Source of the DNA: Mycobacterium sp. Root265
GTDB lineage: Bacteria; Actinomycetota; Actinomycetes; Mycobacteriales; Mycobacteriaceae
Assembly: GCF_001428895.1 (NCBI RefSeq)
Contig: NZ_LMJA01000012.1
Location: forward strand, 249,313-313,312
Length of the DNA stretch: 64,000 bases
Reading direction: 5' to 3'
Shown here piece by piece: positions 13,635-31,842 of the stretch. Both the position numbers and the translations under genes were made by a program. The notes below the pieces were generated by a model, which saw only the letters and a program-made list of their open reading frames with translations, was not told where the DNA came from and searched no databases. Numbering within the stretch: the first letter of the stretch is position 1; each line of letters begins with the position of its first letter.

Positions 13635-14834
13635 ATGACTGCTGTCGAGACTCCCGTGAAGTTCGAGTACGAGCGCATCCCGTATCTCGTCGCCTACCAG
13701 AACACCTCCACCGTCCGCGACGTGTACGGCGGCGTCGCCGAACTCGTGGTGCTGGAGAGCTATCTGCTCAAGCCGAAAGAGAAGCCGAGCGACACCGTCC
13801 TGGTGTTCATGCACCCGATCGGCGGCGGCGCCTACCTGCCGATGATCAACGCGCTGGCCCGGGCCGGCCATCACGTCATCTACTGCAACAGCCGGTTCCG
13901 CGGCACCGACTCCGCACTGCTCATGGAAAAGGTCGTCGAGGACCTCGGCGAGTGCATCAAGGACGCCAAGAACCGCCTGGGTTACTCCCAGGTGGTGCTG
14001 GCCGGCTGGAGCGGCGGCGGGTCGCTGTCGGTCTTCTACCAGCAACAGGCCCAGCACCCGACGGTGACCTCAAGCCCCTCCGGCGACGGCCCCGACCTCA
14101 CCACGCTCGGTCTCATCCCGGCCGACGGCATCATGCTGCTGGCCGCCCACATCAGCCGCCACGGCACCATGACCGAGTGGATGGACGCCTCCATCCTCGA
14201 CGAGAACGACCCGTCCAAGCGGGATCCCGAGCTCGATCTGTACAACCCGGACAACCCGAATCAGCCGCCGTACACACCGGAATTCCTGGACCGCTACCAC
14301 CAGGCGCAGATCGCCCGGAACCGGCGAATCACCGCGTGGGTCAAGGAAAAGCTCGCCGAGATAAGAGCCAGTGGACGCCCCGGCGCGGATGTTGAAGAGT
14401 ACGCGTTCGTGGTGCACGGCACCATGGCCGATCCGCGCTGGCTGGATCCGACGGTCGACCCGAACGAACGCACCCCGGGCACGTGCTATCTGGGCGATCC
14501 TCAGGTGGTGAACAATTCCCCCGTCGGGCTGGCCCGGTTCTGCACCCTGCGCAGCTGGCTGTCGCAGTGGAGCTACGACGACGCCAACGGCGACGCCGTG
14601 AAGGCCGGCCCCGATATCGCGGTGCCCGCGCTGGTGATCGGCAACCTCGCCGACGACGCCTGCACACCGAGTCATACCCGCCGGCTGTTCGAGGCGATCG
14701 GGCACCCCGACAAGGAGATGCACGAGATCACCGGCGCCAACCACTACTACTCGGGACCCGACCAGCGCGGCACCCTGCGCCAGGCCGTCGGAGTGTGCAC
14801 GGACTGGCTGCACCGGCACGGATTCTCGCTATGA
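13635..14834 (+). CDS. Alpha/beta-hydrolase, dioxygenase-linked
   Basis: This 399-residue alpha/beta-hydrolase fold protein begins two bases after the dioxygenase stop codon. Visible elements are an oxyanion-type HPIGGG near residue 57, a nucleophile elbow GWSGGG with Ser126, and a late His in the GANHYYSGPDQ segment; a candidate Asp lies in NLADDACTP. Position and spacing suggest that it acts on the product of the dioxygenase, or hydrolyses an ester or thioester in the same pathway. It is longer than simple esterases, with a roughly 120-residue lid insertion between the elbow and the acidic residue. The substrate is unknown. Its stop overlaps the next gene's start as ATGA. Confidence 0.8.
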   Translation: MTAVETPVKFEYERIPYLVAYQNTSTVRDVYGGVAELVVLESYLLKPKEKPSDTVLVFMHPIGGGAYLPMINALARAGHHVIYCNSRFRGTDSALLMEKVVEDLGECIKDAKNRLGYSQVVLAGWSGGGSLSVFYQQQAQHPTVTSSPSGDGPDLTTLGLIPADGIMLLAAHISRHGTMTEWMDASILDENDPSKRDPELDLYNPDNPNQPPYTPEFLDRYHQAQIARNRRITAWVKEKLAEIRASGRPGADVEEYAFVVHGTMADPRWLDPTVDPNERTPGTCYLGDPQVVNNSPVGLARFCTLRSWLSQWSYDDANGDAVKAGPDIAVPALVIGNLADDACTPSHTRRLFEAIGHPDKEMHEITGANHYYSGPDQRGTLRQAVGVCTDWLHRHGFSL

Positions 14835-16135
14835 CGGCTCCCACCGGCGGGCTGGGGGCACCTCCCGCTTGCGGGGGAGAGCGGAGCGACCCGGGGATTG
14901 TGACCGGCGGGCAGGAGCGGAGCGACCCGGGGATTGTGACCGGCGCGCTGGACGGCATCCGGGTCCTCGAACTGGGCACCCTGATCTCGGGCCCGTTCGC
15001 CGGGAGGCTGCTCGGCGACATGGGCGCCGAGGTCATCAAGATCGAGCTGCCCGGGACGCCGGATCCGCTGCGCACCTGGGGGCAGGCCGAACTCGACGGG
15101 CACCATTTCTTCTGGACGGTGCACGCCCGCAACAAGAAAGCCGCCACGCTCGATCTGCGCACCGCCCGCGGCCGCGAGCTGTTCCTGGAACTGGTGGACC
15201 GCTCCGACATCATCGTGGAGAACTTCCGGCCCGGCACCCTGGAGAAATGGAACCTGGGCTACGACGTGCTGCGGGCCCGCAACAAGGGCATCATCCTGGT
15301 GCGGGTGTCCGGGTACGGCCAGACCGGACCGGATGCCGGTAAGGCCGGTTACGCCTCGGTCGCCGAGGCCGCCAGCGGGTTGCGCCACATGAACGGATTC
15401 CCCGGCGGCCCGCCACCGCGGCTGGCCTTGTCACTGGGTGACAGCCTGGCCGGGATGTTCGCCGCGCAGGGCGCGCTGGCTGCGCTCTACCGCCGCAGCG
15501 TCACCGGCGAGGGCCAGATCGTGGACACCGCGTTGACCGAAAGCTGCTTGGCCATCCAGGAATCCACCATCCCCGACTACGACGTCGGCGGCGTGGTCCG
15601 CGGACCGTCGGGTACCCGGCTGGAGGGCATCGCCCCGTCGAACATCTATCAGAGCGCCAATGGCAGCTGGGTGGTGATCGCGGCCAACCAGGACACGGTG
15701 TTCCGCCGGCTGTGCGCCGCGATGGGTAAGCCCGAACTGGCCACCGATGACCGGTTCGTCAACCACGTGGCCCGCGGCCGCAACCAGGACGAGATCGACA
15801 AGATCATCGGGGACTGGGCGGCCGAACGTGAACCGGCCGACATCATCGCCACGCTGTCGGAGGCCGGCGTGATCAGCGGCCCGATCAACACCGTGGCCGA
15901 GGTGGTCAACGACCCGCAGCTACAGGCCCGCGGGATGATCGCCGATCACTGGGATGAACGCATCGAGCGTAATGTCAAGGGACCGGGCGTGATCCCGGTC
16001 CTCTCGGTGACGCCGGGCAGCGTGCGCAACGGCGGTTCCGCGCGGCCCGGGCAGCACAATGACGAGGTGTACTCGGACCTGCTCGGTCTGAGCGCCGAGG
16101 AACTGACGACGCTGCGAGAGCAGGGGGTTTTGTGA
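14831..16135 (+). CDS. CaiB/BaiF (family III) CoA-transferase
   Basis: Family III CoA-transferases move CoA between carboxylic acids through an aspartyl intermediate. The conserved domain begins at LDGIRVLELGTLISGPFAG and shows GDMGAEVIKIE, NKKAATLDL, VENFRPGTLEKWNLGYD and VDTALTES (candidate catalytic Asp). From ATG 14831 the protein has 434 residues, but the first 36 are encoded by a repeat: a GC hairpin followed by two copies of a 36-bp unit that reads ERSDPGIVTG twice. Each copy contains an in-frame GTG (14900, 14936), and the second would begin VTGALDG, exactly where family similarity starts. The true start may therefore be 14936. The ATG at 14831 overlaps the upstream stop as ATGA. Confidence 0.9.
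   Translation: MTAPTGGLGAPPACGGERSDPGIVTGGQERSDPGIVTGALDGIRVLELGTLISGPFAGRLLGDMGAEVIKIELPGTPDPLRTWGQAELDGHHFFWTVHARNKKAATLDLRTARGRELFLELVDRSDIIVENFRPGTLEKWNLGYDVLRARNKGIILVRVSGYGQTGPDAGKAGYASVAEAASGLRHMNGFPGGPPPRLALSLGDSLAGMFAAQGALAALYRRSVTGEGQIVDTALTESCLAIQESTIPDYDVGGVVRGPSGTRLEGIAPSNIYQSANGSWVVIAANQDTVFRRLCAAMGKPELATDDRFVNHVARGRNQDEIDKIIGDWAAEREPADIIATLSEAGVISGPINTVAEVVNDPQLQARGMIADHWDERIERNVKGPGVIPVLSVTPGSVRNGGSARPGQHNDEVYSDLLGLSAEELTTLREQGVL
14853..14878 (+). repeat. 26-bp GC-hairpin repeat, copy 1
   Basis: The 26 bases from 14853 to 14878, containing CCTCCCGCTTGCGGGGG, are identical to those at 27591-27616 between nuoF and nuoG. The core CCCGC-TT-GCGGG can form a hairpin. Here the element lies inside the predicted N-terminal coding part of the CoA-transferase gene. 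Confidence 0.75.
14879..14945 (+). repeat. Tandem 36-bp direct repeat with in-frame GTG codons
   Basis: Bases 14879-14909 recur exactly at 14915-14945, a 36-bp period (12 codons). Each unit ends in GATTGTGACCGGCG, so each supplies a GTGA that is in frame with the CoA-transferase. The repeat directly follows the 26-bp hairpin element. Confidence 0.8.
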
Positions 16136-22294: not shown

Positions 22295-22360
22295 GGCAGC
22301 CGAGCTATTGGACTCGATACTAACGAAAATGCGCCGCCTCAACCGTTAACGCGACTAAGC

Positions 22361-22376
22361 TGTGTTCTAGCTCACA
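22361..22376 (+). promoter_or_regulatory. CRP-type site upstream of nuoA
   Basis: TGTGT-TCTAGC-TCACA matches the CRP/GlxR consensus TGTGA-N6-TCACA at nine of ten arm positions. It lies 42 bp upstream of the nuoA start. Mycobacterial CRP proteins bind this consensus and control several respiratory and energy genes, so direct control of nuo is plausible. Whether it activates or represses depends on the promoter position, which I cannot fix. Confidence 0.5.
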
Positions 22377-22418
22377 TCGACAGTCCAACGAGAGAGCGGC
22401 ACAAAGGTTGACACAGGC

Positions 22419-22793
22419 ATGAACGTCTACACACCCATCCTGGTGCTCGGGGCGATCGCTGCCGTGTTCGCGATCGGCTCGGTGGGCATTGCCACCTTCA
22501 TCGGACCGCGCCGCTACAACCGGGCGAAACTCGAAGCCTACGAATGCGGGATCGAACCGCTGCTGCCCGCCGAGGACGCCAAGCTCGCCACCGGCCAGCG
22601 CTTCCCGGTCAAGTACTACCTGACCGCAATGCTGTTCATCATCTTCGATATCGAGATCGTGTTCCTCTACCCGTGGGCGGTGTCCTTCGACTCGCTGGGC
22701 CTGTTCGCGGTGGTCGAGATGCTGCTGTTCATGCTGACCGTCTTCGTGGCCTACACCTACGTCTGGCGCCGAGGAGGCCTGTCATGGGACTAG
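22419..22793 (+). CDS. nuoA: NADH-quinone oxidoreductase subunit A
   Basis: This 124-residue membrane subunit of complex I has three predicted transmembrane helices (about 5-28, 66-88 and 93-115). The conserved loop [11 protein letters not shown] contains the Cys that lies in the Q-site loop, and the second helix region reads [15 protein letters not shown]. It starts the nuoA-N operon; the ATG is preceded by a weak AAAGGT. The end overlaps nuoB by ten bases. The CRP-like site and likely promoter lie in the 184-bp gap upstream. Confidence 0.97.
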
Positions 22794-23341
22794 AGGAACA
22801 ACTGCCCGGCGGCATTCTGCTGTCCACCGTGGAGAAGGTCGCGGGCTATGTCCGGAAGGGCTCGCTGTGGCCCGCCACCTTCGGGCTGGCGTGCTGCGCC
22901 ATCGAGATGATGGCGACGGCGGGTCCGCGCTTCGACATCTCCCGGTTCGGCATGGAACGGTTCTCCGCCACCCCGCGGCAGGCCGACCTGATGATCGTCG
23001 CCGGCCGGGTCAGCCAGAAGATGGCTCCGGTGCTGCGCCAGGTCTATGACCAGATGGCGGAACCGAAATGGGTACTGGCCATGGGGGTCTGCGCATCCTC
23101 GGGCGGCATGTTCAACAACTACGCGGTGGTGCAGGGTGTCGACCACGTGGTACCGGTGGACATCTATCTGCCCGGTTGCCCGCCGCGACCCGAGATGCTG
23201 CTGAACGCAATCCTCAAGCTGCACGCCAAGATTGCCGAAATGCCGCTCGGCGTCAACCGCGCCGAGGCGGTGGCCGCCGCCGAACAGGCCGCGCTGGCGT
23301 CGCCGACCACCCTCGAACTGACCGGATTGTTGCGTTCATGA
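22784..23341 (+). CDS. nuoB: NADH-quinone oxidoreductase subunit B
   Basis: This 185-residue peripheral-arm subunit carries the terminal N2 [4Fe-4S] cluster. All four ligands are present: adjacent Cys37-Cys38 in [10 protein letters not shown], Cys103 in GVCASSGG and Cys132 in [10 protein letters not shown]. The ATG at 22784 lies inside nuoA behind GAGGAGG, giving translational coupling. Longer frames that begin inside nuoA are out of register with the family. The C-terminal tail after residue 150 is variable. Its TGA overlaps an ATG (ATGA at 23338) that opens a 22-codon frame leading to nuoC. Confidence 0.97.
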
Positions 23342-23406
23342 GCGACGCTTGCGGAGCGAATCGACAGACACCATGCGAGACCCGAGCCTGCGAGGGGATC
23401 GCATGA
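23338..23406 (+). other. 22-codon bridging frame between nuoB and nuoC
   Basis: A frame starts at the ATG that overlaps the nuoB stop (ATGA) and ends at the TGA that overlaps the nuoC ATG (ATGA). It encodes a 22-residue, Cys-rich peptide beginning MSDACG and ending CEGIA. The DNA contains CGCTTGCGGAGCGAA, which resembles the dispersed repeats elsewhere in the window. I see no peptide homology. It may only keep ribosomes moving across an inserted spacer rather than encode a functional product. Confidence 0.3.
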
Positions 23407-24065
23407 CGGATCGAGAAGTCATCGGCACCCGCCGCGGCATGTTCGGTGTCACCGGCAGCGGGGACACCTCGGGTTACGGCCGGCTCGTCCGCGAGGTCTC
23501 GCTGCCGGGCAGTTCACCGCGGCCCTACGGCGGCTACTTCGACGAGGTGGTGGATGCGCTGATCGCCGGGCTGGGAACCGACCGGTTCAGCGCCGCTGTC
23601 GAACGTGTGGTGGTGTTCCGCGACGAACTCACCCTCGAGGTCCGCCGTGAGCACCTGCCGCTGGTGGCCCAGTCGCTGCGCGACGATCCCGCGCTGAGAT
23701 TCGAGCTCTGTCTGGGTGTTTCGGGTGTGCACTATCCGCAGGAGCAGGACCGCGAGTTGCACGCGGTGTACCCGCTCATGTCGATCACGCACAACCGTAG
23801 GCTTCGGGTGGAGGTCGCCGCCCCCGATACCGATCCGCACATCCCGTCGCTGTTCCCGGTGTATCCGACCACCGACTGGCACGAGCGCGAGACCTACGAC
23901 TTCTTCGGGATCATCTTCGACGGGCACCCGTCGCTGACCCGCATCGAGATGCCCGACGACTGGGTGGGGCATCCGCAACGCAAGGACTACCCGTTGGGCG
24001 GCATCCCCGTGGAGTACCACGGGGCGCAGATACCGCCGCCCGACGAGCGGAGGTCATACAACTGA
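23403..24065 (+). CDS. nuoC: NADH-quinone oxidoreductase subunit C
   Basis: This 220-residue peripheral subunit (30-kDa type) helps form the quinone-site module with NuoD. Conserved features are [21 protein letters not shown], the central [13 protein letters not shown] and the signature [17 protein letters not shown] with [21 protein letters not shown] 23403 is preferred over an ATG 54 bases upstream because GAGGGG lies seven bases before it and it overlaps the stop of the bridging frame. M. tuberculosis NuoC has a somewhat longer N-terminus. The stop overlaps nuoD by one base. Confidence 0.95.
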
Positions 24066-25393
24066 TGTCAGGCCGTAGCACGCCTTCCACCACCCCACCC
24101 GCAAGCGAACCACCCGTCGTCATGGTCGGCGGTCAGGACTGGGATGCGGTGGTGGCCGCCGCGCGCGAACACGCCGGTGAACGCATCGTCGTCAACATGG
24201 GCCCGCAGCACCCGTCCACGCACGGCGTGCTGCGGCTGATCCTGGAGATCGAAGGCGAGACCATCACCGAGGCCCGGTGCGGAATCGGCTATCTGCACAC
24301 CGGGATCGAGAAGAATCTCGAGTACCGCAACTGGACTCAGGGCGTTACCTTCGTGACCCGGATGGACTACCTGTCCCCGTTCTTCAACGAGACCGCCTAC
24401 TGCCTCGGCGTGGAAAAGCTGCTCGGCGTCACCGACGACATCCCCGAACGCGCCGGCATCATCCGGGTGATGCTGATGGAGCTCAACCGGATCTCCAGCC
24501 ACCTGGTCGCACTGGCCACCGGCGGTATGGAACTGGGCGCAATGTCGGCCATGTTCTTCGGGTTCCGCGAGCGCGAGGCCATCCTCAGCATGTTCGAGAC
24601 CATCACCGGTCTGCGGATGAACCACGCCTTCATCCGGCCCGGCGGGCTGGCGGCAGATCTGCCCGACGAGGCCCTGCCCCAGTTGCGCGAACTGCTCCAG
24701 ACGCTGCCGGAGGGTCTGCGCGACCTGGAAAAGCTGCTGCGGGAGAACTACATCTGGAAGGCCCGCACCCAGGGCATCGGGTACCTGGATCTGACCGGGT
24801 GCATGGCGCTGGGCATCACCGGACCGGTACTGCGTTCCACGGGGCTGCCGCACGACCTGCGCCGCGCCCAACCGTACTGCGGGTATGAGACCTACGACTT
24901 CGAGGTGTGCACCGACGACGGCTGTGATGCTTACGGGCGCTATCTGATTCGCGTCGACGAGATGAAGGAGTCGCTGAAGATCGTCGAACAGTGCGTCGCC
25001 CGGTTGAAGCCCGGTCCGGTGATGCTGACCGACAAGAAGCTGGCCTGGCCGGCCGATCTCAAGATCGGCCCGGACGGTCTGGGCAACTCCCCCGAGCACA
25101 TCGCGAAGATCATGGGATCCTCGATGGAGGCCCTCATCCATCACTTCAAGCTGGTCACCGAGGGCATCCGGGTGCCGGCCGGGCAGGTATACGTCGCCGT
25201 CGAGTCACCGCGCGGCGAACTCGGCGTGCACATGGTCAGCGACGGCGGCACCCGCCCGTACCGCGTGCACTATCGCGATCCGTCATTCACCAATCTGCAG
25301 GCGGTGGCCGCCATGTGTGAGGGCGGCATGGTCGCCGACGCGATCTCCGCGGTGGCATCGATCGATCCGGTGATGGGAGGGGTGGACAGGTGA
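24065..25393 (+). CDS. nuoD: NADH-quinone oxidoreductase subunit D
   Basis: This 442-residue 49-kDa-type subunit lines the quinone cavity next to NuoB. Conserved parts include [15 protein letters not shown] (with the quinone-contact His) near residue 40, [24 protein letters not shown], the RPGG segment and, at the C-terminus, [15 protein letters not shown] and ESPRGELG. The first 35 residues are a mycobacterial-type extension, poor in structure ([13 protein letters not shown]). The ATG overlaps the nuoC TGA by one base (TGATG). Confidence 0.97.
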
Positions 25394-26231
25394 CTCTGGT
25401 CGAACTGCAGCTGGGGCAACGCCCGGACGAATCCGGGCCCCCGATCAGCGCGGGGCCGCAACGCTATTCGGACGAGGTGACCGAACGTCTCTCCGACGAC
25501 GCCCGCCGGATCATCGCGCGCTATCCGGTCGCCCGGTCGGCACTGCTGCCGCTGCTGCACCTGGTGCAGGCCCAGGACGGCTACCTGACGCCGGCCGGAA
25601 TCGGTTTCTGCGCTGCACAACTCGGCCTCACCCCCGCCGAGGTCACCGCCGTCGCCACGTTCTACTCGATGTACCGACGCACCCCCACCGGTGACTACCT
25701 CGTCGGGGTCTGCACCAACACGTTGTGCGCGGTCATGGGCGGCGACGCCATCCTGGAGGTGCTGCAGGATCACCTCGGCATCCACGCCGGGCAGAGCACC
25801 GCGGACGGTTCGGTCACGCTGGAACACATCGAATGCAACGCCGCGTGCGATTACGCCCCGGTGGTGATGGTCAACTGGGAGTTCTTCGACAACCAGACCC
25901 CGTCGTCGGCGCGCGATCTCGTCGATGATCTCCGGTCCGGCGCACCGGTCACGCCGACGCGCGGCGCGCCGATGTGCACCTTCAAGCAGACGGCCCGCAT
26001 CCTCGCCGGCTTTCCCGATCAACGACCCGGCGCGAATGACGCGCAACCCGGCGATGCCACGCTCGCGGGCCTGGCGGTCGCCCACGAGCGGGGCATGGCC
26101 GCTCCCGCGACCGGAGTAAACGGCTCCACGGCAAGCGGTCCCGATGACGAGCGGATCGCCGAGGAAACGGCGCGCAACGAACCGGCTCCCGCGCCGTCGG
26201 CCGACCTGCCGCCGAAGAACGGGGACCGACC

Positions 26232-26235
<4 letters not shown>
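25390..26235 (+). CDS. nuoE: NADH-quinone oxidoreductase subunit E
   Basis: This 281-residue subunit holds the N1a [2Fe-2S] cluster of the NADH-oxidising module. The thioredoxin-like domain has all four ligands: Cys108 and Cys113 (CTNTLC) and Cys149 and Cys153 (ECNAAC). The first 155 residues follow the family. The part after about residue 200 is a low-complexity, Pro/Ala/Asp-rich tail of about 80 residues, longer than in enteric NuoE, as seen in mycobacterial forms. The GTG start overlaps the nuoD stop by four bases and the end overlaps nuoF by four bases. Confidence 0.96.
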
Positions 26236-27524
<1,289 letters not shown>

Positions 27525-27641
27525 GGGTCACTATGTTCCGGCGAGCAGACACAAAAGGCACCAAATCGGGCCTAGTTCGGGGCCATTTGTTGGGGGCACC
27601 TCCCGCTTGCGGGGGACTGCTCGCGCGAGAAACGGGGGTAC
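27525..27641 (+). mobile_element. 117-bp insert with 8-bp flanking direct repeats (MITE-like candidate)
   Basis: GCGCATGA occurs at 27517-27524 and again at 27642-27649, flanking a 117-bp segment like a target-site duplication. Inside are an 8-bp inverted repeat (GCGAGCAG 27541-27548, CTGCTCGC 27617-27624), a CAAAT/ATTTG stem around 27572-27589, and the 26-bp hairpin repeat shared with 14853-14878. There is no room for a transposase. The other nuo junctions, apart from B/C and perhaps G/H, overlap by 1-17 bases, which supports this being extra DNA. Confidence 0.5.
27591..27616 (+). repeat. 26-bp GC-hairpin repeat, copy 2
   Basis: Identical over 26 bases to 14853-14878, with a CCCGC-TT-GCGGG stem. 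It lies within the 117-bp insert between nuoF and nuoG. Confidence 0.75.
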
Positions 27642-27645
27642 GCGC

Positions 27646-30027
27646 ATGACGATCGCCGATCCGGCCAAGGAGACCACCCCCGTCGAGATGGTGGAGTTGT
27701 CCATCGACGGGCACCAGGTCAGCGTGCCGAAAGGCACCCTGCTGATCCGCGCGGCCGAACTGATGGGCATCCAGATCCCCCGGTTCTGCGACCACCCGCT
27801 GCTCGACCCGGTCGGCGCCTGCCGACAGTGCCTCGTCGAGGTCGAGGGGCAACGCAAGCCGCTGGCGTCGTGCACCGCCGCGGTCACCCCGGACATGGTG
27901 GTGCGCACCCAGCTGACCTCCGAGATCGCCGACAAGGCCCAGCACGGTGTGATGGAACTTCTGTTGATCAACCATCCCCTGGACTGCCCGGTCTGCGACA
28001 AGGGCGGCGAATGCCCGCTGCAGAACCAGGCGATGTCCAACGGCCGCAGCGACTCCCGCTTCACCGACGTCAAGCGCACCTTCCCCAAGCCGATCAACCT
28101 GTCCGCCCAGGTGCTGCTCGACCGCGAACGCTGCGTGCTGTGCGCGCGGTGCACCCGGTTCTCCAACCAGATCGCCGGCGACCCGTTCATCGAACTGCTG
28201 GAACGTGGCGCGCTGCAACAGGTCGGCATCGCCTCCGGGGAGGCGTTCGACTCCTACTTCTCCGGCAACACCGTGCAGATCTGCCCGGTCGGTGCCCTCA
28301 CCGGGACCGCCTACCGCTTCCGGGCGCGGCCCTTCGACCTGGTGTCCTCACCGAGTGTGTGCGAACACTGCGCGTCGGGCTGCGCGCAACGCACCGACCA
28401 CCGCCGCGGAAAGGTGTTGCGGCGACTGGCCGGAGACGACCCCGAGGTCAACGAGGAATGGAACTGCGACAAGGGCCGCTGGGCCTTCACCTATGGCCGC
28501 CGAGGTGACCGCATCACGACTCCCCTGGTCCGCGACCCCGATGGCAGCCAGCGACCGGCGTCCTGGTCGGAGGCGGTGGCGATCGCGGTACGCGGCCTGA
28601 CCGCCGCGGCCGGACGGGCCGGTGTCCTGGTCGGCGGCCGCGCCACCATGGAGGACGCCTACGGTTACGCCAAGTTCGCGCGGATCATGCTGCACACCAA
28701 CGACATCGACTTCCGCAGCAGGGCCCATTCGGCGGAGGAGGCCCAGTTCCTGGCACACGCCGTCGCCGGATTGCCGCACTCGGTCAGCTACGCCGACATC
28801 GAGTCCGCGCCCGCCGTGCTGCTGGCCGGTTTCGAACCCGAAGAGGAATCACCGATCGTTTTCCTGCGGCTGCGCAAGGCCTTCCGCAAACGCGGTCTGC
28901 CGGTGCTGTCGGTGGGTCCGTTCGCGACCCGGGGGCTGGACAAGATGGGCGGCCGGCACATTCCGGCCGCGCCGGGCGGTGAGGCCGCCGCGCTGGACGG
29001 CCTGAAGGACGACCTGCCGCCCGACGCGCTCATCCTCGTCGGTGAACGCCTGGCCGGCTCCCCCGGTGCCTTCTCCGCGGCGATCCGGCTGGCCGCGGCG
29101 ACGGGAGCCAGACTGGGCTGGATACCGCGCCGGGCCGGTGAGCGCGGCGCGTTGGAAGCCGGTGCCGCACCGCATCTGCTGCCCGGCGGCCGCCCCGTCG
29201 AGGATGCCGCTGCCCGCGGTGAGGTGGCGCGCGCCTGGAACGTGGAAGAACTGCCCGCCCGGCCCGGCCGCGACGCCGGCGCGATCCTGGCCGCGGCCGC
29301 CGCCGGCGATATCCAGGCACTGCTCGTCGGTGGCGTCGAGGTCGACGATCTGCCCGACCCCGAAGCGGCCGTTGCCGCGCTGGAGGCAGCACCGTTCGTC
29401 GTCAGCCTGGAGTTACGGCACAGCGCCGTCACCGAGCGCGCCGACGTGGTGTTCCCGGTCGCGCCGGTCGCCGAGAAGGCGGGCACCTTTGTGAACTGGG
29501 AGGGCCGCCATCGTCCGTTCGGCGCCGCGCTGCCGCCGGTCGCCACCGCCGATATGCGGGTGCTGGCCGCCCTGGCCGATGAGGTCGGGGTGGATCTGCG
29601 GCTGACCGACGCGGCCACCGTGCGCGCCGATATCGAACGGCTCGGCAGCTGGCAGGGCCCGCGCCCCGCCGCGCCGACCGTGCCGACCGTGCCGGCGGCC
29701 GAGCCGCCGCAAGCCGGGCCCGGTGAGGCCGTGCTGACCGGCTGGCGGATGCTGCTCGACGACGGACGACTGCAGGACGGGGAACCGCACCTGGCCGGCA
29801 CCGCGCGTCCCGCGGTGGTCCGGCTGTCCGAGGCGACGGTCTCCGAGATCGGTTGCGCCGACGGTGCTGCGGTGCGCGTCAGCACCGACCGCGGTGAGCT
29901 GAGCCTGCCGGTGGCGGTGACCGAGATGCCCGACCGGGTGGTGTGGGTGCCGCTGAATTCCGCCGGGTCGGTGTACCGGATCCTGGGCGCAACGAGCGGC
30001 GACACGGTCCGGATCGAGCCGGTATGA
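27646..30027 (+). CDS. nuoG: NADH-quinone oxidoreductase subunit G
   Basis: This 793-residue iron-sulfur subunit relays electrons from NuoEF. N1b [2Fe-2S] ligands are Cys48, Cys59, Cys62 and Cys76. N5 is His110, Cys114, Cys117 and Cys123 ([10 protein letters not shown]). N4 begins CVLCARC (163-169) with a late Cys in ICPVG. The motif CEHCASGC, with a Cys further on, indicates the extra N7 cluster found in some bacteria. A molybdopterin-oxidoreductase-like domain fills the C-terminal two thirds, with an Ala/Pro-rich linker near residue 680. The ATG at 27646 is chosen because similarity starts there; earlier in-frame DNA is inside nuoF. Confidence 0.97.
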
Positions 30028-30056
30028 CGCAGGCGAGAAGCGAAGCGGGATCGCCC

Positions 30057-31322
30057 ATGAACATGCCGGATCTCAGCTCATTCGGCCACGACCCGTGGTG
30101 GCTGATGCTCGTCAAGTGTCTGCTGATCTTCGTGTTCCTGCTGCTCACCGTGCTGGTGGCCATCCTCGCCGAACGAAAGATCCTGGGCCGCATGCAGATG
30201 CGGTTCGGCCCCAACCGGGTCGGCCCGTTCGGGTTGTTGCAGAGCCTGGCCGACGGCGTCAAACTCGCGCTCAAAGAGGGCCTCATCCCGACCGGTGTCG
30301 ACAAACCGATCTATCTGATGGCGCCGGTGATCGCCGTCATCCCGGCGATCATGGCGTTCGCCGTCATCCCGATGGGCGGGCTGGTGTCGGTCTTCGGCCA
30401 CACCACCGCACTGCAACTCACCGACCTGCCGGTCGCCGTGCTCTACGTGCTGGCGGTCACCTCGGTCGGGGTGTACGGAATCGTGTTGGCGGGGTGGGCA
30501 TCCGGATCGACCTACCCACTGCTGGGCGGTCTGCGCTCCAGCGCCCAGGTGGTCTCCTACGAGATCGCGATGGCGCTGTCCTTCGTCGCCGTGTTCCTCT
30601 ACGCCGGCACCATGTCCACCTCCGGCATCGTCGCCGCCCAGCACAGCACCTGGTTCGTGTTCCTGCTGCTGCCCTCGTTCCTGGTGTACGTGACCTCCAT
30701 GGTCGGCGAAACCAACCGGGCACCGTTCGACCTGCCGGAGGCCGAGGGCGAACTCGTCGGCGGATTCCACACCGAATACTCCTCGCTGAAGTTCGCGATG
30801 TTCATGCTCGCCGAGTACGTCAACATGACGACGGTGTCGGCCCTGGCCACCACGATGTTCCTCGGCGGCTGGCAGGCCCCGTTCCCGTTCAACATGATCG
30901 ACGGCGCCAACTCGGGATGGTGGCCGCTGCTGTGGTTCGTCGGGAAGGTGTGGGCCTTCCTCTTCCTGTTCATGTGGCTGCGCGCCACCCTGCCCCGGCT
31001 GCGCTACGACCAGTTCATGGCGCTGGGCTGGAAGCTGCTCATCCCGGTGTCGCTCGGCTGGATCGTCGTCGTCGCCATCACCCGGACGCTGCGCGGGCAG
31101 GGCTCGCCGATCTGGGTGGCCATGGTGATCAGTCTCGGCGCCGTGGTCGCGGTGGTGCTGATCCTGATGATCCGCCGTTCGTTGCGACGCAACGCCATCC
31201 CGACCTTCAGCCTGCCCACGGATCCGGGCGCGGTCAGCGTCTACCCGATCCCGCCGATACCGAATATTCCGCGTCCGCTGCGCGAGGAACCGAAGGAGCA
31301 TCAAGATGTCCAAAACCGGTGA
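30057..31322 (+). CDS. nuoH: NADH-quinone oxidoreductase subunit H
   Basis: This 421-residue membrane subunit links the Q site to the proton channels, with eight or nine predicted helices. Conserved parts are [32 protein letters not shown], the acidic [20 protein letters not shown] loop and AEYVNMTT. The C-terminal 50 residues are a cytoplasmic Pro-rich tail. An ATG at 30024 overlaps the nuoG stop (ATGA) and is in frame, adding 11 residues. I prefer 30057 because the resulting N-terminus (about eight residues before FGHD) fits mycobacterial NuoH. The DNA between the two ATGs contains GAAGCGAAGCGGGA, another repeat-like string. Confidence 0.95.
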
Positions 31323-31842
31323 TGCGCTGGCGGGGTTCGGCGTCACGTTCAAGGCAATGTTCAAGAAGCCGATCACCGAGCAGTACCCCGAGGAGCCCGG
31401 CCCCGTCGCGGCGCGCTACCACGGCAGACATCAGCTCAACCGGTATGCCGACGGGCTGGAGAAGTGCATCGGCTGCGAGCTGTGCGCCTGGGCCTGCCCC
31501 GCGGACGCCATCTTCGTCGAAGGTGCGGACAACACCGAGCAGCAACGGTTCTCACCGGGCGAGCGCTACGGGCAGGTGTACCAGATCAACTATCTGCGCT
31601 GCATCGGCTGCGGGCTGTGCATCGAGGCCTGCCCGACCCGGGCGCTCACCATGACCAACGACTACGAGATGGCCGATGACAACCGGGCGGACCTCATCTA
31701 CGGCAAGGACAAGTTGCTCGCCCCACTGGCCGCCGACATGACCCCGCCCCCGCACGCGATGGCGCCGGGCAGCACCGATGAGGACTACTACCGCGGCAAC
31801 ATCAACGCCATCGGACTGATCCAGCAGCCGGAGACGGCCTGA
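31306..31842 (+). CDS. nuoI: NADH-quinone oxidoreductase subunit I
   Basis: This 178-residue ferredoxin-like subunit carries clusters N6a and N6b. Two classic 4Fe-4S motifs are visible: Cys54, 57, 60, 64 ([11 protein letters not shown]) and Cys99, 102, 105, 109 ([11 protein letters not shown]). The N-terminal amphipathic helix [14 protein letters not shown] probably rests on the membrane. The ATG lies 17 bases inside nuoH behind AAGGAG. The stop overlaps nuoJ by one base. Confidence 0.97.

Follow-up and report, generated by a model that had tools for sequence, protein, structure and literature searches.

How can repeat DNA settle in an operon whose genes overlap by a few bases, and what becomes of the coupling between those genes? 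The nuo operon of Mycobacterium sp. Root265 raises this question at two junctions. We analyzed a window of 64,000 nucleotides (contig NZ_LMJA01000012.1, positions 249,313 to 313,312 of the forward strand), in which the nuo operon lies on the + strand and encodes a NuoB identical to that of Mycolicibacterium frederiksbergense LB 501T, the nearest named record. As the original prediction had stated, overlaps of 1–17 bases join nuoA/B (10 bases), C/D (1), D/E (4), E/F (4), H/I (17), I/J (1), J/K (4), and K/L (1). Spacers separate nuoB from nuoC and nuoF from nuoG, and each is crossed by a mini-ORF that begins in the upstream stop codon and ends in the downstream start codon; the coordinates, frames, and codon counts predicted for both were correct (Table 1). 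The ATGA-to-ATGA distances, 65 at B/C and 125 at F/G, are both 2 mod 3 and do permit bridging, as was argued. A third unit, at nuoG/H, is possibly an 11-residue N-terminal extension of NuoH.

Table 1. Window coordinates of the nuo genes and junction inserts under study
Feature	Position	Strand	Remark
nuoB	22784..23341	+	TGA 23339-23341 overlapped by mini-ORF ATG 23338
B/C spacer: R65 unit with terminal ATGAs and 22-codon bridging mini-ORF	23338..23406	+	
nuoC	23403..24065	+	ATG 23403 overlaps mini-ORF TGA 23404-23406
nuoF	26232..27524	+	TGA 27522-27524 overlapped by mini-ORF ATG 27521
F/G composite insert with 42-codon bridging mini-ORF	27521..27649	+	
Palindrome GCGAGCAGAC...CTGCTCGC, dispersed ~60-bp hairpin family	27541..27624	+	interrupted by a second repeat
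Nested GGGGGCACCTCCCGCTTGCGGGGGA repeat	27592..27616	+	interrupts the right arm of the palindrome
nuoG	27646..30027	+	ATG 27646 overlaps mini-ORF TGA 27647-27649
Third unit, nuoG/H, ATGA-to-ATGA 33 bp	30024..30060	+	in frame with nuoH

The geometry is not rare. A mechanical scan for DTGA – mini-ORF – DTGA chains flanked by open frames of 100 codons or more returned 18 in the window, B/C and F/G included, some of them clearly intragenic (for example, 25691-25867 in nuoE). Geometry alone is therefore weak evidence, and the weight of the case rests on comparative data. A search of Rfam gave no match up to E = 1 in 22300-31400. Our best reading, drawn from sequence comparison, is that inserts at coupled junctions would persist mainly if ribosomes translate through them or if they fuse in frame to the next gene. 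At the two nuo junctions, it is probable that repeats were inserted into ATGA coupling sites, with each frame handing ribosomes on to the next gene. The observations that bear on this reading are the identity of the repeats, the empty sites in relatives, the conservation of frame, and a paired stem.

One complete copy of a dispersed 65-bp repeat, here named R65, makes up the B/C spacer. With the 69 bases of the spacer as the query, the source genome contains six full-length places at 77–100% identity, and 105 of 397 genomes of the genus, the source included, have a match at E ≤ 0.001, some covering the first ~30 bases only. Tandem copies that step by 65 bp with one ATGA in common occur in G187, G317, G096, G200, G034, and other genomes. 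We surveyed 41 units in 35 loci, five from the source genome and the 30 best loci of the genus, the window's own among these. All 41 units have an ATGA at both ends and an intact 22-codon frame, a conservation of the ends that is partly a selection effect because the loci were picked by similarity. A script count found open frames of 60 codons or more on both sides of 28 of the 41 units; when tandem units were merged and counted manually, 31 of the 35 loci were flanked in this way (the exceptions being L004, L103, L115, and L118), compared with 10.9% of 1431 control DTGA sites. The three codon positions vary to the same degree (entropy 0.37, 0.395, and 0.399), so R65 is conserved as DNA and not as peptide, and a selected peptide in R65 was rejected on this ground. 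With its fixed length and built-in frame, R65 passes the frame on as part of the element; selection on the frame is seen directly only at F/G.

The B/C site is found without the repeat, as a plain ATGA, in five close relatives (L126, L129, L134, L137, and L142). Bridging was seen at 6 of 128 mycobacterial B/C junctions; another 121 fall in the class of direct DTGA overlaps, under which in-frame N-terminal extensions were also counted. One locus, L143, has three tandem R65 units between nuoB and nuoC; this 195-bp array is a candidate variable-number locus. Two others, L133 and L141, contain 33-bp tandem units that resemble the left end of R65 and extend NuoC in frame without bridging, which makes in-frame fusion a second tolerated outcome.

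The F/G insert is a different element and does not belong to the MIRUs. Its matches are to two dispersed repeats, a palindrome and the GGGGGCACCTCCCGCTTGCGGGGGA element nested within it. The window's spacer exceeds the L142 spacer in length by 24 bp, and the close relatives L129 and L130 have a plain ATGA at this site. Insertion into an original ATGA overlap, as first proposed, is supported by the plain sites at both junctions and by the dispersed nature of the B/C insert. The palindrome pattern GCGAGCAGAC...GTCTGCTCGC occurs at 14 places in the source genome, versus 3 for the reversed pattern. One of the 14 is chance-like by eye; at 9 of the remaining 13, by our own reading, a long neighboring frame (one of the two longest listed) ends within ~20 nt. 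Elsewhere in the window, at 14831-14960, a further ATGA junction contains a GC-rich repeat in which the GGGGGCACCTCCCGCTTGCGGGGGA element is combined with a tandem unit coding for ERSDPGIVTG; this repeat is in frame with a 434-codon frame and forms its N-terminus.

Across the genus, the stem of the F/G palindrome is kept while the arms and flanks change. Of 31 F/G copies, 26 have a hairpin core of exactly 60 nt. In these 26 copies, 504 of 572 positions are paired versus a mean of 447 after partners are re-dealt, and the inner stem is paired at 256 of 312 versus 201, a control that takes no account of relatedness. Sliding the partners by 1–2 positions lowers the paired share from 0.84 to 0.30–0.46.

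To follow the frame across Mycobacterium, we assembled 128 loci: the window, 7 named loci, and 120 picked, best matches first, from ~150 places listed. The places were drawn from 394 genomes with a match; the sample is not random and contains no duplicates by nuoB sequence. The strict bridging test accepted a start one base before the stop only, and the relaxed test also accepted +2 and +3. The chain counts leave out A/B, with its 10-base overlap, and one E/F row that was too far. Changes were counted on a quick midpoint-rooted tree of four nuo genes, so that these counts are rough.

Of 126 mycobacterial F/G junctions, 56 are direct (48 DTGA overlaps and 8 other), 60 are bridged, and 10 are unbridged. 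In 45 of the 60, bridging is by a strict DTGA chain; in the other 15, the link is TGATG or the start codon immediately follows the stop. Two outcomes had been named as contrary to the original prediction. The first, the same spacer conserved in all mycobacteria, is rejected: the spacers differ across the genus and are not uniform over the 126 junctions. The second, related spacers with a broken frame, is found in part: where a non-direct junction starts at ATGA, GTGA, or TTGA, 54 of 57 are bridged, but L189, L218, and L232 are not. Seven further junctions, in which no start overlaps the upstream stop, do not pass the bridging test. L206 and L214 begin with a TGATG and then continue out of frame; L018, L163, L196, and L217 have a MIRU-like core and an upstream stop without an overlapping start; and in L216, a stop that likewise lacks one is followed by a short gap. 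The bridging rule at F/G is strong, not absolute.

Of the hairpin-bearing junctions, 29 of 31 are bridged; parsimony requires at least 18 changes of length among them and one loss of the bridge. By our own arithmetic on the rough tree, at most one loss in 18 changes has a p near 1e-7 if each change keeps the frame one time in three. In the direct junctions, the nuoG match starts at most 53 nt past the nuoF stop, leaving no room for the 60-nt hairpin. When all non-direct F/G spacers of at least 20 nt are considered, 49 of 58 are bridged (37 strictly); the same set is bridged in 15.6% and 18.0% after one and two random inserted bases, respectively. A +1 shift turns 60% of them into in-frame fusions and hence need not break coupling. 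On these sequences, the proposal that inserts are kept where coupling survives is largely supported, the F/G frame being retained far above the shifted controls.

Three other explanations were weighed against this reading. The first holds that the frame is kept merely because the inserts are fixed-length units of 2 mod 3, a product of the insertion mechanism without selective filtering. Units of constant size are indeed common, namely R65 at 65 bp, the units at D/E and G/H at 32 bp, the MIRU at 53 bp, and the recurrent 60-nt core at F/G, but the F/G spacers with a hairpin measure anywhere from 82 to 124 nt between stop and start and still keep their bridging, partly by a switch to TGATG or TAGATG links, and we regard this explanation as unlikely. 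The second, less likely still, views the F/G spacer as an ordinary intergenic region with a terminator-like hairpin and a ribosome-binding site, from which nuoG is started independently, the open frame being a coincidence of GC-rich DNA. An AG-rich stretch precedes nuoG in many hairpin-bearing spacers (by eye), and in the window GAGAAACGGGGG upstream of nuoG could be a putative ribosome-binding site; unbridged F/G spacers exist; and GC-rich DNA has many open frames, shuffled interiors of the hairpin spacers staying open in 37%. Coincidence does not account for bridging that survives at least 18 length changes or exceeds the shift controls to this extent, and it was rejected for the F/G frame on both counts. 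The third, that the mini-ORFs encode functional small proteins, is very improbable: R65 peptides are alike between copies, but R65 varies equally at all codon positions, the F/G frame accompanies a hairpin that varies freely in its arms, and the insert is absent from many genomes.

We return to the reading in which ribosomes pass through the inserts. Translational coupling is best at short distances, structure just past the upstream stop lowers it, and Rho loads onto untranslated RNA, as summarized in the review PMC12548453. We infer translation of the mini-ORFs, hand-over of ribosomes, and relief of termination, as follows. A ribosome ending nuoB (or nuoF) would restart at the first ATGA, translate 22 (or 42) codons across the insert, and restart a second time at nuoC (or nuoG) via the downstream ATGA. 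At B/C, the MIRU-like R65 would supply its own ATGA ends and frame. At F/G, the insert combines a terminator-like palindrome with a nested repeat; translation through the spacer would melt the hairpin and leave no bare RNA for Rho, such that nuoG and the later genes would still be expressed. A hairpin inside the operon would be hazardous if left untranslated, and this would account for the conservation of the F/G frame.

The count was extended to other junctions of the genus. Long non-direct spacers are bridged in 6 of 6 cases at B/C (33% and 26% after one- and two-base shifts), 27 of 27 at D/E (14% and 19%), and 10 of 10 at G/H (15% and 35%); the figures are 2 of 3 at C/D and 0 of 1 at E/F. 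The 32-bp repeat units lie at D/E and at G/H, where L126 has a 32-bp bridging version versus the window's 33-bp in-frame unit. Outside Mycobacterium, the pattern is mixed: apart from A/B, the set sorted as non-Mycobacterium has 27 bridged junctions, two of which belong to L014 (M. frederiksbergense, a Mycolicibacterium), and 12 DTGA-start junctions that are broken or overrun. In L084 (Pseudonocardia), nuoF/G contains a palindromic-looking insert with a 39-codon bridging frame. A broader proposal, which we put forward tentatively as a serious possibility, is that coupled junctions across Mycobacterium act as a sieve: unrelated repeat families, with units of 32, 53, and 65 bp and a hairpin of 60 bp, would settle there, and nearly all that persist would bridge or fuse in frame. 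A terminator-like palindrome would thereby be tamed and may make expression of nuoG-N depend on nuoF translation. The junctions show how repeat DNA can enter tightly packed operons without breaking them, and they offer natural replicates of frame-preserving insertions for the study of ribosome restart after a stop.

How do the two inserts compare with known systems? MIRUs insert at start codons, and the ORF inside them is coupled to the gene through a 4-nt overlap (Supply 1997, as cited in the review PMC12548453); their size is about 46–101 bp (PMC3914561). R65 is like a MIRU in being a short dispersed mycobacterial repeat of a size within this range, in its position at start codons with a coupled inner ORF of 4-nt overlap (41 of 41 units), and in forming tandem copies. 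It is unlike a MIRU in its 65-bp length with a sequence of its own. The idea of translational bridging is not new: R65 behaves as the same account of PMC12548453 describes for MIRUs, so the principle was already known. The classical MIRU core pattern is present in 160 of 397 genomes of the genus and has 0 places in this one at up to 1 mismatch. In L173, nuoF/G contains a close relative of the MIRU292 core, in the form of two 53-bp units with bridging frames that closely match the 53-bp unit of MIRU292 of M. avium subsp. paratuberculosis printed in Table 1 of PMC7977185; R65 shares with the L173 unit only a local similarity of ~23 bp, a score reached by 3 of 500 shuffles.

The F/G insert differs from MIRUs in being palindromic and of variable length. 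MIRUs are not known to have palindromic symmetry; the F/G spacer has a strong hairpin, and the classical MIRU core is absent from the genome. Repetitive extragenic palindromes and terminator-like hairpins form its comparison class. Like the former, the F/G palindrome is a dispersed intergenic palindrome, often located just past a gene end; unlike these palindromes and terminators, it is located within an operon and is crossed by a frame, and its GC-rich hairpin lacks the T-run that follows the hairpin of an intrinsic terminator (none is present in 27625-27645). Searches with the sequences of R65, of the D/E unit, of the nested repeat, and of the hairpin gave no paper, in a literature of partial coverage that makes this weak evidence of novelty. 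Among the matches listed for the palindrome ends, none is about this palindrome by title, and the main text of PMC9094748 contains no word beginning with "coupl" or "MIRU". R65 is MIRU-like, a likely member or variant of that class; its repeat family and the hairpin version, which stays in frame in many species, look new, and they extend the MIRU principle to other sequence families, a hairpin included.
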